A DNA stretch of 64,000 nt from Candidatus Fermentibacteraceae bacterium (GTDB lineage: Bacteria > Fermentibacterota > Fermentibacteria > Fermentibacterales > JCC-6). The stretch is from assembly GCA_016744855.1 (NCBI GenBank), contig JADGDO010000010.1:62001-126000 (forward strand), given 5' to 3'. Shown here piece after piece: positions 30,686 through 63,640 of the stretch. The notes under the pieces were generated by a model. That model saw only the letters and a program-made list of their open reading frames with translations, was not told the origin of the DNA and ran no database searches. Both the position numbers and the translations under genes were made by a program. The stretch's first letter is position 1; every line of letters begins with the position of its first letter.

Positions 30686-30782
30686 GGGAGCGCAAGGGAG
30701 CTGGTGTTCCTCTCGGACTTCAAATCCGACGTCGGGTGCTAGAACCACCCTGGGTGGGTTCGATTCCCACACGTTCCCGCCA
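30686..30782 (+). tRNA. selC: tRNA-Sec (anticodon TCA, selC)
   Basis: 97 bases with encoded CCA, too long for an ordinary tRNA. Acceptor GGGAGCG pairs with CGTTCCC (one G-T) and extends towards the 8 pairs typical of bacterial tRNA-Sec; D arm GGGAGCTGGTGTTCC; anticodon stem CGGA/TCCG closes the loop CTTCAAA with anticodon TCA; a long variable arm (about 20 bases, GTCGGGTGCTAGAACCACCC) precedes the T arm GTGGGTTCGATTCCCAC. The cell therefore can decode UGA as selenocysteine. selA, selB and selD are not in the window. The 3' end takes part in a large inverted repeat. Confidence 0.95.
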
Positions 30783-55931: not shown

Positions 55932-56264
55932 TCAGTAAATACAGGCATCCAGCAATGCCTGAGCTTCGGCAAGCAGATCAGGTGAAGCCTTTTCAATAAA
56001 CCTCACATTTCTGCTGCGGAAATCTATAGATTTAATCTGCTCTAACATAACAAACCCAGTTAGGTTTTCTGAATGAACGGGTATGTGAAAAGGGTAATTC
56101 CGAAACGTTCTTGTTAAAGGGCATACAAAGGCCAATCCTGTTTTCTGATTGAATAGATTCTTGCTGATAACCAGTGCCGGTCTCCGGCCGGCCTGCTCAT
56201 GACCTGATTGAGGATTAAAAGAAACTGCAACAAAATCTCCCTGCTGTGGAATGTAGGCAGCCAT
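55932..56264 (-). CDS. mazF: MazF-family endoribonuclease toxin
   Basis: 110 residues from ATG 56262-56264, which overlaps the mazE stop by one base. PQQGDFVAVSFNPQSGHEQA, GRRPALVISKNLFNQ and VCPLTRTFRNYPFHIPV are MazF/PemK landmarks; GFVMLEQIKSIDFRSR closes the core. Cleaves mRNA when freed from MazE. Confidence 0.9.
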   Translation of the reverse strand: MAAYIPQQGDFVAVSFNPQSGHEQAGRRPALVISKNLFNQKTGLAFVCPLTRTFRNYPFHIPVHSENLTGFVMLEQIKSIDFRSRNVRFIEKASPDLLAEAQALLDACIY

Positions 56265-56512
56265 CACCACTCCTCATTGCCTTCGGGTTTTCCCCAGTCT
56301 GTTTCTTTGACAATGTAATCTGCAGGAATTTCAGCGACAAGATTCTCTATACAGTACTTCCCTCTGATTCTCCTCACGGGAGTAATCAGAATAGTTCCGT
56401 CATCCACTCTGATGCTGACTTCATCTTCCACCGTAAGATCGGCCTTTTCTAGTATGCTCTTGGGAAGTCGTAATCCCTGGCTGTTTCCCCATTTCTGAAT
56501 TCTGGTGTTCAT
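56264..56512 (-). CDS. mazE: MazE-family antitoxin (AbrB fold)
   Basis: 82 residues from ATG 56510-56512 (GGAGG six bases ahead; TTG at 56518 is less likely). The swapped-hairpin DNA-binding segment MNTRIQKWGNSQGLRLPKSI is diagnostic of MazE. The acidic C-terminus (DWGKPEGNEEW) binds MazF. A direct repeat overlaps its promoter. Confidence 0.9.
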   Translation of the reverse strand: MNTRIQKWGNSQGLRLPKSILEKADLTVEDEVSIRVDDGTILITPVRRIRGKYCIENLVAEIPADYIVKETDWGKPEGNEEW

Positions 56513-56523
56513 ATCCAACCTCC

Positions 56524-59237: not shown

Positions 59238-60569
59238 TCAGAGGATAAGCTCCGGTATCTTGTGTGCTGCATACAGAGGAAGGTAAAGAACTCCGTCTCC
59301 TTCAGAAAAATTCCATGCTCCAAGCTTGATTGAAACATCCGGGTTATACTTACTTCTGAAAACAGAGAGAGATTTCGACCTGGTATTTCTGCCGGATTTC
59401 ACTTCTACTGGTACCGAGCTTGAACTACCGTCAAGCAGAAATTCAATTTCTGAGTTTCTTTCAACCCAGCAATGCAGTTTCCTAAGACCATTTGCAACAA
59501 GCTCTTGTGCTACTGCGTTTTCAGCAACCCAGCCTTTGTAAAAACCAGGGTTGAAAACTCTGGTTTCCTTGAGTGGTATCCCTGCCATATATCTTAAAAT
59601 GGCAGTATCGTGAACGAAAAGTTTGAAAAGGGATTGCTTTTTCCAGACAGAAACGGGGGTTTCACCCCGGTTAATAACAGGTACCAGATTTACCATTCGA
59701 GCCTTCTGGAGCCAGGAAATAGGCCCCTCGAGATCTCTGAAGCTCTTTTTTCCCGGAATAACCCCTTTGAATCGAAAACGATTTGCATTTCCGTCAAAGT
59801 CTCTTCCCAGTTGAGATGGGAGACTGGTCCACACTTTTTCTATATGGAGGGCGTTTGTCTTCCCTGAATGTTTTGCGATGTCTGAAATCCAGCCATCCAC
59901 CAGATGCTCCTGTACTGCACGAACTGCGTTGTATGCAGCCCATTCGCCATTCTGGACCGTATTAATGTATACCTCAACAGCTTCGGGCATACCACCTACT
60001 GCTAGGTAATGTCCGTAAATCTGCCATATTCGGTTGTGAACTGTGTCGGAGAGAGGCTTGCGTACAGAAGCAGTATCAAGAAAATGTAATGCTTGCTCTT
60101 CTCCGGTAGCAGATAGGAATTCTTTAAAATCCAGCGGGTCTACATTTATGATATTAACTTTCCCCACTGGAAATGGTTCTTGTGATAAATGTACACCAAG
60201 CAATGAACCGGCAGCTGCAATGAAAGAGCCAGGCATAAATTCGCAGAAATATTTTAAAGCAGTAATTGCTTGGGGACATGCTTGGATCTCATCAAGAATA
60301 AGCAATTCTCTGCTTAAATCAATGGTAGTTCCGGCGATGAATTCCAACTCCTGCAGAATGTGTTTAGGATCCAGATTCCCCGACATAAATGCCTCACAGG
60401 AGGTGCGGTTCATTTTCAGATCAAAATAGTGTGTTGCAGGGAAGGAGGAGGCGAAGAGTTGTTTGAGAAGATAGGTTTTTCCGGACTGTCTGATTCCCCT
60501 GAGAAGCAGCGGCTTCCTGTTCGGATTCTCTAACCATCCCTGTAATTCGTGTTCTACTTTGCGTTTCAT
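59238..60569 (-). CDS. AAA ATPase with DUF4143 domain
   Basis: 443 residues. Walker A LLRGIRQSGKTYLLKQLF, Walker B LLILDEIQACPQAI, sensor region FIAAAGSLLGVHLSQ, then the C-terminal DUF4143 domain (VLRYMAGIPL, GWVAENAVAQELVANG, IEFLLDGSSSSVPVEVKSG). The last segment resembles a PD-(D/E)xK nuclease-like core (E-(L)-D-VEVKSG). Common as a solitary mobile or accessory gene; cellular role unknown. It has a strong promoter directly against its start codon. Confidence 0.87.
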   Translation of the reverse strand: MKRKVEHELQGWLENPNRKPLLLRGIRQSGKTYLLKQLFASSFPATHYFDLKMNRTSCEAFMSGNLDPKHILQELEFIAGTTIDLSRELLILDEIQACPQAITALKYFCEFMPGSFIAAAGSLLGVHLSQEPFPVGKVNIINVDPLDFKEFLSATGEEQALHFLDTASVRKPLSDTVHNRIWQIYGHYLAVGGMPEAVEVYINTVQNGEWAAYNAVRAVQEHLVDGWISDIAKHSGKTNALHIEKVWTSLPSQLGRDFDGNANRFRFKGVIPGKKSFRDLEGPISWLQKARMVNLVPVINRGETPVSVWKKQSLFKLFVHDTAILRYMAGIPLKETRVFNPGFYKGWVAENAVAQELVANGLRKLHCWVERNSEIEFLLDGSSSSVPVEVKSGRNTRSKSLSVFRSKYNPDVSIKLGAWNFSEGDGVLYLPLYAAHKIPELIL

Positions 60570-60769: not shown

Positions 60770-62017
60770 TCAATTCAGGACAACAACTTTACCACACTCA
60801 AAAATTCCTGTTTCACTGGTACATTTAACCAAATAGGCTCCGGCAGGAAAGTCTGACACATCAACAGCCCTGACGGATTCCCCCGCCGGGAGGACTTCGT
60901 CCAATACCCGGGAAGGGGAGCGTCCATCAGTCGAGTAGATATCAACTCTACACTTGCCGGGTTCATCCATAGCAAAACTCAGAACACATAAGTCTGTTAC
61001 AGGGCTCTGAACGGAAGAGAGAAATCCACCTGTCTGAGGGGTTTCAACACCCTGAGGTGGGTCTGCAAGATAGAGTCTGATATCACCATTGAAGTCTCCT
61101 GAAAGAATATCAAGCGCACCGTCATTGTTCCAGTCGAACAGACAGATATTGTGATGGTAATTGTAGATCAACTCTTCTCCGCCGTACAGCTGGACCGGGT
61201 CAGCAAGCACCGGTGCATCATTGGTACCGATATTTCTGTAAAAGTATACCCAACCCCAGTTAGGGCCGTCAGAAACCCCGTCAAAAGGACCGGTGTCACA
61301 GGCAGCCAACACAAGATCAACCAGGCCATCAGCATCCAGGTCACCCATCTGTGGAGCTGAGCGCCACTTCTGAATTATGCCTGATGTGCTGGACATTGCA
61401 GTGTATCCTGAGAAAGAAGGTAATCCAGTGGATCCTGTGTTTGGGTAGAGTCTTATGCTGCCGCCGTTGTAAAACTCTCTTCCGGCAAGAAGATCAATGA
61501 GGCCGTCCCCGTTCCAGTCGTACAAAGCAGGACAAGAGATAAACCCTACATCAATCTGGCTTCCATTGCTCTTTATATTAGGCATACTCTGAAGGCTGCC
61601 ATCGGCCAGTCTTTCATAATAATAGATAGTACCGCATCCCCCACCGAATATCAGATCCATCATGCCGTCATTATTCCAGTCCACAACCTGTGGATTAGGT
61701 GTTGCAGCGTGTCCTCAAGTACTGTAAACCTCAATGTCGGTTTCATTTGCCTGCAGATAGGTGTAGTCAATAAATGAAGGAGCACCCGGTTCTCCCTGAT
61801 TAAGGTAGAGGCGGAAATGACCGTAGCAGGGATCCCCCATACCGTATGGGTCAGGGTTGGGATTAACATCGAACCCTTCTGATACAATAAGATCAGGAAG
61901 ACCGTCTGCATCCCAGTCTGCAATAACCGGTGAGGCCAGGTTTTCGACAGACTCAATAATTACCGGAGCTTCAAAGGTGGGTATCGTCAGTAAACAGAAA
62001 AGGATAGGCGAGATCAT
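60770..62017 (-). CDS. Secreted FG-GAP repeat protein with in-frame TGA (candidate selenoprotein)
   Basis: ATG 62015-62017 (GAGAGGGG ahead) starts a signal peptide (MISPILFCLLTIPTFEA) and an FG-GAP unit (IADWDADGLPDLIVSEG). After VYST the frame meets TGA at 61715-61717 and continues without shift as GHAATPNPQVVDWNNDG, then MMDLIFGGGCGTIYYYERL and more FG-GAP units, to a Por-like C-terminal tail (CRVDIYSTDGRSPSRVL, FPAGAYLVKC). Both halves together give a coherent 415-residue protein. A hairpin of bacterial SECIS type lies 21-35 bases after the TGA, and the window carries tRNA-Sec. So either Sec is inserted or this is a nonsense-mutated gene. Confidence 0.7.
61680..61694 (-). promoter_or_regulatory. 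Candidate bacterial SECIS hairpin
   Basis: Read on the minus strand: TCCACA-GGT-TGTGGA, six perfect pairs with a GGU loop whose first G is 27 bases after the TGA. Known bacterial SECIS elements have a loop with G in the first two positions 16-37 bases after UGA, like the AGGUCU loop of E. coli fdhF. Confidence 0.55.
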
Positions 62018-62194
62018 AGAGCATTCCCCTCTCAACGAGCAAAGCCGGCGGGAAGCTTCACTTCTGTGATGTACCAGACAGGAATGTATCCTGCAGATGG
62101 TTTCTTGAAACATAAGGAATCTTACGCAGGAATCAACCCTTTGGCAAAACAGGTTGCACTGTAATGAGTTCCACTGAGCAGAAAGAAACCGGAA

Positions 62195-63640
62195 TCACAT
62201 GCTTCTAAGAGCAATAGCGACTCCAGCACCGTACTTGGGATCTGCCTTCGCGAAGTGGGCTACCATCTTCTCCTGAAGTTCGAACGGTACTTTGTGCAAA
62301 CTGCCTGCAATGTTCCTGCACAACCTTCTCTGGTGTTCGGTGTCCAGAAGTCTGAAGAGGTTCCCTGGTTGGATATAATCGTCATCAACTCCGCGTTTCT
62401 GTTCAAAACGATCTGCAGTACCGGATAGCTTCATTGGTGGTTCATTGTAACTCGGATCTTCAACCGGACCACCGGTGGAATTGGGCTCGTAATTGGGATC
62501 TCCGCCCCCGTTGTCATCAAACCGCATTGCCCCGTCTCGCTGATAGGTGTTGTTTACAGCTGCAGCATGTGGACAGTTAACAGGCAATCTTTCAAAATTC
62601 ACTCCAAGGCGGTATCGACTGGCGTCAGCATAGGCGAAAATACGCGCCTGCAGCATTTTGTCCGGTGAGAATGAGATACCAGGTACAACATTTGCAGGTG
62701 AAAAGGCGGACTGCTCTACCTCTGCGAAGTAATTAGCTGGATTACGGTTCAATTCCAGAATTCCAACCTCCATCAGTGGATAGTCACTGTGAGGCCAGAC
62801 CTTGGTCAAATCAAAGGGGTTCCAGTTGTAGTTTTCAGCTTCAACTTCAGGCATAACCTGAATTGAGAATGTCCAGGTGGGATATTCGCCACGTTCTATG
62901 GATTCGAACAATTCCACAGTGTGGTAATCCGGATTCTCTCCAGAAATTCTTGTAGCTTCACTCGGTGGCAAACACTGAATTCCCTGTCTGGTTTTGAAGT
63001 GGAACTTCACCCAGAATCTCTCGTTTTTTGAATTGATAAAACTGTATGTATGGCTTCCGTAACCGTTCATGTATGGAATACCCTTGGGAATACCCCGGTC
63101 AGAGAAAAGAATGGTTACCTGATGAAGAGACTCCGGTACTTTGGACCAGAAATCCCACTGGGCATAGTCCCTTTTGGCATTGGTTTGAGGGTCACGTTTC
63201 TGGGTATGAATAAAATCAGGAAACTTCATAGCATCCCTGATGAAGAAAACAGGTGTGTTGTTACCAACCATATCCCAGTTTCCCTCTTCAGTATAGAATT
63301 TAAGAGCAAAACCACGAACATCACGAACAGTATCAGCAGAGCCCTTTTCTCCGGCAACGGTTGAGAAGCGGCCAAACATATCCGTTTTCTTCCCTATCTC
63401 TGAGAAGATTTTTGCTTTTGTGTACTTTGTAATGTCTTCTGTTACGGTGAATACCCCATGAGCTCCTGCCGCTTTGGCGTGTACAATACGCTCTGGAATC
63501 CGTTCACGGTTGAAATGAGCAAGTTTTTCAAGCAGGTAGTGATCCTGAAGTAAGGTTGGACCTCGTTCTCCGGCAGTGAGTGATGTCTGGTTGTCAGGAA
63601 CGGGGATTCCAGCTGCAGTGGTTAGTTTCTTCCGGTCCAC
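62195..63640 (-). CDS. katA: Heme catalase (small-subunit, clade 3 type)
   Basis: 481 residues from GTG 63638-63640 (AAAGGAG ahead). Distal His54 in [14 protein letters not shown], Asn in [14 protein letters not shown] (about 127), and the proximal heme Tyr in [14 protein letters not shown] are present. No large-subunit C-terminal domain. Converts hydrogen peroxide to oxygen and water in the cytoplasm, useful to an anaerobe with a glycyl-radical enzyme exposed to oxygen. Confidence 0.95.

Follow-up and report, generated by a model that had tools for sequence, protein, structure and literature searches.

A predicted selenoprotein family on an exported five-bladed FG-GAP propeller in Fermentibacterota, Planctomycetota and other bacteria

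A UGA codon within the reading frame of an FG-GAP protein

Does a lone UGA in the middle of a gene for an FG-GAP repeat protein encode selenocysteine (Sec), or does it mark a broken gene? The question is raised by the minus strand of a 64,000-nt stretch of a Candidatus Fermentibacteraceae genome (hereafter the window), where the frame running from the ATG at 62015–62017 to the TGA at 60770–60772 contains a sole internal stop, the TGA at 61715–61717. A first-pass annotation made from the sequence alone had described the reading as continuous across this codon with FG-GAP repeats on either side; the coordinates proved exact, and Pfam agrees, PF13517 (FG-GAP_3) matching the window protein with 82.1 bits (cut-off 26.9) and covering both sides of the TGA. 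The gene (60770–62017, minus strand) would thus encode 415 residues with Sec at position 101 (context EVYST-U-GHAATPNPQVVDWN), in the order signal-peptide-like start, five-bladed FG-GAP propeller and C-terminal domain resembling those of type IX sorting. This assignment is based on the frame, the domains, nine paralogues in the genome and an AlphaFold model (pLDDT 87.5). A putative ribosome-binding region (GAGAGGGG; 62018–62033, minus strand), recognized from the sequence itself, precedes the start codon. Ordinary gene calling splits this and every other copy of the family, as the list of open reading frames (ORFs) stops at the UGA and resumes after it.

The gene immediately upstream, read in the same direction, encodes a catalase (62195–63640, minus strand; Pfam 647 bits), and just downstream is a gene for an AAA_14/DUF4143 ATPase (59238–60569, minus strand). 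Two small overlapping genes at 55932–56518 (minus strand) resemble, by eye, a MazF/PemK-type toxin and an AbrB-type antitoxin. Inspection by eye of the ORFs flanking 13 family loci revealed no recurrent neighbour or operon partner, and nothing that would name a substrate.

The UGA recurs at one column in paralogues and across phyla

The window genome (3.24 Mb in 107 contigs, 94.85% complete), which is related to Candidatus Fermentibacterota, encodes nine paralogues of the FG-GAP protein, i.e. the window copy and eight further full-length copies. Each contains exactly one in-frame TGA, and the TGA column is invariant in their alignment. Seven paralogues share the Sec context G-U-C-T-G-A-T-[NS]-P-Q, one reads H-C-U-P-K-T-G-A-R-N-P-Q, and the window copy S-T-U-G-H-A-A-T-P-N-P-Q. 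More generally, most relatives have the order U-C and some carry a Cys before the Sec, the window type, without either adjacent Cys, being in the minority. Of the proposal that VYST-U-GHAAT is a Sec site, the Sec reading therefore stands, while the glycine following it is not general, most relatives being U-C.

Of 42 genomes belonging to the same order, 36 contain family copies, and nearly every copy has a single TGA. In a first set of 170 distinct aligned copies, 124 had TGA at the column (130 when copies aligned with TGA as the next codon are counted). A second set of 50 copies came from a sample of 294 Planctomycetota genomes that was searched later with a second profile; 47 of these had TGA and three had Cys at the column, and TGA copies were present in 78 genomes of the sample. 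In total, 167 distinct TGA copies were read. Besides Fermentibacterota and Planctomycetota, they were located in WOR-3, Verrucomicrobiota, Lentisphaerota, Armatimonadota, Fibrobacterota and Nitrospirota bins, the relatives named in GTDB including Candidatus Sabulitectum, Candidatus Aegiribacteria, other Fermentibacteria, WOR-3, Chitinivibrionales, Planctomycetota, Verrucomicrobiota, Lentisphaerae, Chthonomonas and a Nitrospiraceae bin. Many of these relatives are metagenome bins, and individual placements, such as the 'Desulfuromonas sp. SDB' and 'Bacillota' records, could reflect faulty binning. As several TGA copies reside on single-contig assemblies or megabase contigs (e.g. genome G300 and locus L063), assembly error cannot be the general explanation. 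Three copies (L207, L243 and L244) contained two TGAs; a second Sec was considered for these and rejected, since the extra TGA falls past the last propeller strand and represents the true stop.

The first-pass annotation had left a simple nonsense mutation possible, and a single TGA in one gene, be it a mutation or a sequencing error in a decaying gene, would indeed look alike. A broken copy does exist in the family: one member of the window subfamily (L113, minus strand; G023:C34:12668-13372) has suffered a mid-gene deletion and is probably decaying. However, recurrence of the TGA at one column in so many distinct sequences, some of them on single or megabase contigs, is not what a mutation or error predicts. 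Nor is selection relaxed after the codon, a result that annotation had named as one that would refute the Sec reading: the median dN/dS was 0.13 downstream of the TGA (91 pairs of family members, maximum 0.26) and 0.17 upstream. The window copy and its orthologue in genome G028 are 70% identical before and 66% identical after the TGA, with unchanged residues around the Sec. Together with the near-universal presence of selA in TGA-bearing Planctomycetota genomes (see below), recurrence and purifying selection leave a decaying gene a negligible probability, and we reject it.

A SECIS hairpin follows the UGA and is conserved beyond the protein code

Bacterial SECIS elements are modelled as a stem of 4–16 bp with a loop of 3–9 nt, a G in the first two loop positions, a spacing of 16–37 nt and a minimum free energy of at most −7.5 (PMC13188914). 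A hairpin with its loop 27–29 bases past the TGA had been noticed in the window, and it is present as described: TCCACA-GGT-TGTGGA (61680–61694, minus strand) begins its stem 20 nt after the TGA, leaves 26 nt between the TGA and its 3-nt loop, and has a G first in that loop. With 6 bp, the loop GGU, the 26-nt spacing and −8.9 kcal/mol, this apical hairpin satisfies the model. Compared with chance, the single hairpin is modest (z −1.5); 15 of 200 shuffled versions of the 58-nt stretch fold equally well, and 4% of synonymous recodings of the window peptide yield a hairpin as strong. In isolation it is weak evidence; what lifts it far beyond chance is its conservation in the family.

This conservation takes several forms. 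A hairpin of at least five pairs that fits the published model was found in 128 of the 130 TGA copies tested. Codon choice at the hairpin is frozen, as assessed in 99 copies having P-Q-[AV]-[VA]-D after the Sec: Asn is encoded by AAT in 82/82 cases (background 0.41), Ser by AGT in 11/11 (0.12), Pro by CCA in 91/99 (0.13), Val by GTG in 96/96 (0.26) and Gln by CAG in 99/99 (0.83). The wobble base of the Pro codon covaries with the middle base of the codon lying three codons downstream (CCA-GTG in 105 copies, CCG-GCG in 12, CCG-GTG in six and CCC-GTG in two). Finally, relative to synonymous recodings drawn from each gene's own codon usage, folding energy reached a mean z of −1.89 in TGA copies vs. 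−0.11 in non-TGA homologues. Related copies are not independent, so that these counts overstate the number of events, yet the pattern recurs across phyla. As judged from codon usage and covariation, the SECIS hairpin is held by selection beyond the protein code.

WOR-3 copies (L033, L034 and L035) have another stem, GTCGCA-GTT-TGCGAC, over another peptide (TVAVCDW), in the same geometry. The apical core of the Fermentibacterota hairpins, CAGGYTG (i.e. CAGG[CT]TG), is also contained in the SECIS elements of both selD genes of the window genome.

The machinery for selenocysteine is present and co-occurs with the UGA

A complete tRNA-Sec gene 31 kb away had been called from the window, and ARAGORN places a 97-nt tRNA-Sec(UCA) at 30686–30782 on the plus strand. 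Absence of selA, selB or selD from the genome had been named as a refutation of the Sec reading; all three are present. Here, selA adjoins selB, and one of two selD genes (L245, G000:C85:30587-31507 +; L246, G000:C10:33589-34512 -) lies beside the pair. Both selD genes carry an in-frame UGA of their own at the canonical site (CAGUAGK).

Across the Planctomycetota sample, selA scored over the cut-off in 76 of the 78 genomes with TGA copies (97%), compared to 190/294 overall and 114/216 among the remaining genomes (Fisher test of TGA vs. remaining genomes, p = 4e-15). An independent set of loci gave 33/34 (one a fragment) vs. 3/16 (p = 2e-8). Neither test was corrected for shared ancestry. TGA copies without a visible selA occurred in G105 (one Verrucomicrobia bin), G357 and G318, bins that may be incomplete.

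Cysteine and other residues replace selenocysteine at the column

Homologues showing neither Cys nor TGA at the Sec column would likewise have counted against the first-pass reading. Alongside the TGA copies counted above, Cys (TGC or TGT) was found there in homologues from Planctomycetota, Bacteroidota and Verrucomicrobiota, namely in L092 (Verrucomicrobia), L093 and L103 (both Bacteroidota), L202, L225 and L226. The last two belong to complete-looking single-contig Planctomycetota genomes of 7.8 and 8.3 Mb, respectively, in which selA has only weak matches (E about 1e-12, well short of the cut-off); neither copy retains the hairpin.

Other residues are tolerated as well. In remoter relatives from Verrucomicrobiota and Planctomycetota (L039, L047, L050, L059, L067 and L191), Gly-Cys replaces Sec-Cys; judged by these replacements, Sec is not essential to every member of the family. 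In a tandem copy (L147; G024:C35:13819-15021 -), TGA-TGC (Sec-Cys) is replaced by GAA-ACC (Glu-Thr) with the hairpin intact; this copy may represent a natural, perhaps recent, loss of Sec. A quick tree of 71 members required seven changes among Sec, Cys, Gly and Glu, their direction being undetermined because the root is not fixed. Members with Sec fall in both halves of this tree; Cys was gained or retained at several points, the Gly-Cys members make up one or two groups, and the Glu of the tandem copy is a recent change.

These exchanges also bear on whether the UGA could be translated as something other than Sec, be it through a code reassigned to Trp or Gly or through programmed readthrough driven by the hairpin. 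Hairpins can promote readthrough, and Gly does stand at the column in remote homologues. However, the usual substitute in close homologues is Cys rather than Trp, selA-lacking genomes included, each gene has one TGA only, and the true terminator is TGA in 48 of 124 family genes, so that UGA is not reassigned. Moreover, the tRNA-Sec is the only tRNA with a UCA anticodon found within the window, and the hairpin shares its core with the one in selD, which encodes a known selenoprotein. Translation as another residue is very improbable on these grounds. Code reassignment, like a nonsense mutation, was rejected on the basis of the recurring column, the conservation of the hairpin, and selection and stop usage.

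Incorporation of Sec at the family UGA is near certain so far as sequence evidence goes; evidence from selenium or from a peptide spanning the site is lacking. For the window gene itself, Sec insertion at UGA 61715–61717 in an exported propeller is very likely. The ribosome would read this UGA as Sec, directed by recognition of the hairpin by SelB, and the chain would run on to the true stop.

Predicted fold and export of the propeller

The AlphaFold model of the window protein, computed on 36 family members (pTM 0.75), comprises a five-repeat propeller, whose DxDxDG loops are at residues 34, 113, 167, 226 and 295, and after it a small beta domain. Sec101 is modelled in the loop ahead of strand 110–112, the entry to blade 2. 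A planctomycete member (L063; pLDDT 91.4, pTM 0.87) was predicted to adopt the same propeller, with a helical hairpin before the last strand and without a tail. VIA-align matched residues 10–324 to five-bladed glycosidases (Z 19, rmsd 3.4, 260 residues), and CRTAC1, integrin alpha, ITFG2 and the Psathyrella lectin ranked high in Foldseek. The top VIA folds were not taken as an indication of glycosidase function, identity being about 8–14%. Once exported and folded, the protein would hold its Sec in the loop that leads into the innermost strand of the second blade, on the side that bears the central pocket in propeller enzymes. That the loop faces the pocket is inferred from the general layout of propellers and the topology of the model, not from measured coordinates.

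Export is supported by the signal-peptide-like starts that occur in all parts of the family. The first-pass annotation had suggested secretion by a type IX route, a suggestion that is only partly supported. In its favour, SprA of the window genome scored well over its cut-off (416.7 vs. 200 bits) and paralogue tails pass theirs, e.g. that of L011 for TIGR04183 (39.7 vs. 23 bits). On the other hand, the Por_Secre_tail-like domain of the window copy (60773–61030, minus strand; about residues 330–415) is sub-threshold (PF18962, 4.6e-4; 20.9 bits with a cut-off of 27, and 19.7 bits for TIGR04183), as is the PorU-like protein with 405.9 bits (cut-off 420). The window genome encodes at least four large PorU-like proteins, including L250 (G000:C30:124806-127877 -) and L251 (G000:C107:30254-33328 +), all of them short of the curated cut-off; the type IX sortases in Fermentibacterota seem divergent and multiplied. 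C-terminal type IX tails are present in Fermentibacterota and WOR-3 members and absent from those of Planctomycetota, which end in the propeller strand GxVWLYLRK. Type IX export of the window protein is plausible, the route being inferred.

Possible roles of the selenocysteine site

In most members, the adjacent Cys would allow a Sec-Cys selenenylsulfide to form. The window subfamily is without this Cys; Cys64, in a MGDPCYGHF loop (codon at 61826–61828, minus strand) that is identical in the two closest orthologues, is a possible resolving residue there and may substitute for it, a role that is inferred. We propose that the site is a selenol/thiol redox centre outside the cell, located at the propeller mouth; the function is inferred, and we give it about an even chance.

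Sec-Cys and Cys-Cys pairs, when vicinal, are known ligands of soft metals. The main rival accepts Sec insertion and assigns the site to binding of soft metals or metalloids (mercury, arsenic, copper), or of selenium, for scavenging or detoxification instead of redox catalysis. Propeller loops make good binding platforms, and up to nine paralogues would suit a binding role. Several selenoproteins with a CU motif, i.e. SaoL, MbdU and HgcA, are linked to metals (table of PMC13188914). The strict keeping of Sec over Cys rather suggests chemistry, and no metal-resistance genes were noticed by eye among the ORFs beside the 13 loci. Metal binding is thus possible, though we doubt it.

Alternatively, Sec might be inserted for a structural or adhesive role, e.g. 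with a selenenylsulfide stiffening the binding loop in a propeller that resembles a lectin or an integrin. The closest Foldseek folds, among them integrin alpha, CRTAC1 and the Psathyrella lectin, would fit such a role, as would the existence of Gly-Cys relatives. But a disulfide would do equally well, and costly Sec is seldom retained for structure alone, so that this role appears unlikely.

Returning to the redox reading, a hitherto undescribed family of extracellular selenoenzymes that spans multiple phyla and is built on a five-bladed FG-GAP propeller, with the Sec-Cys pair doing redox chemistry outside the cell, is a proposal for which we see the case as evenly balanced. If it is true, then in genomes with nine paralogues the family may be a main reason why such bacteria keep their selenocysteine machinery. 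Carried by dozens of Fermentibacterota and Planctomycetota genomes, the family is far larger than could be seen from the window alone. With it, one can test why Sec is retained in these phyla and whether it serves chemistry outside the cell; its natural Sec, Cys, Gly and Glu forms and SECIS variants provide ready-made test material.

Comparison with known selenoproteins and propellers

An inventory of prokaryotic selenoproteins from 2026 lists 119 families, most characterized selenoproteins being thioredoxin-like, and has no FG-GAP, VCBS or propeller entry among them (PMC13188914). Neither is an FG-GAP, VCBS or propeller family among the nine new families of deep-Sep (PMC12013277). Eight family members had no match to the selenoprotein models of NCBIfam 20.0, and a literature search combining selenoproteins with FG-GAP, VCBS or type IX secretion returned nothing relevant. 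The earlier impression that an exported propeller selenoprotein had not been described is upheld within these sources, although an earlier listing cannot be excluded. The known selenoproteome apparently gains a large family whose fold and cellular location are both new to it.

The mechanism of Sec insertion is ordinary; what appears new is the protein family, its fold, its extracellular place and its copy number. With catalogued bacterial selenoproteins it shares the in-frame UGA, the SECIS element right after it, the Cys homologues and the co-occurrence with selA, whereas no propeller family is found among them. Like the CU selenoproteins (SaoL, HgcA, MbdU and KCU-star), it combines adjacent Cys and Sec residues between which a selenenylsulfide is possible, but the order is usually reversed (U-C), the fold unrelated and the location extracytoplasmic. 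Type IX cargo (PF18962, TIGR04183) is resembled by the Fermentibacterota and WOR-3 members in their C-terminal domain, with SprA encoded in the genome, while the window copy remains under the curated cut-offs. Five-bladed glycosidases (GH62, GH43 and GH32) match the whole fold at the low identity given above, but are without FG-GAP repeats. With FG-GAP/VCBS proteins (PF13517; integrin alpha, CRTAC1, Psathyrella lectin), the family has in common the DxDxDG repeats, the propeller and export; it differs from integrins in having five repeats, or blades, instead of seven, and from FG-GAP/VCBS proteins in bearing Sec (or Cys) and, next to it, a further Cys where repeat 2 begins.
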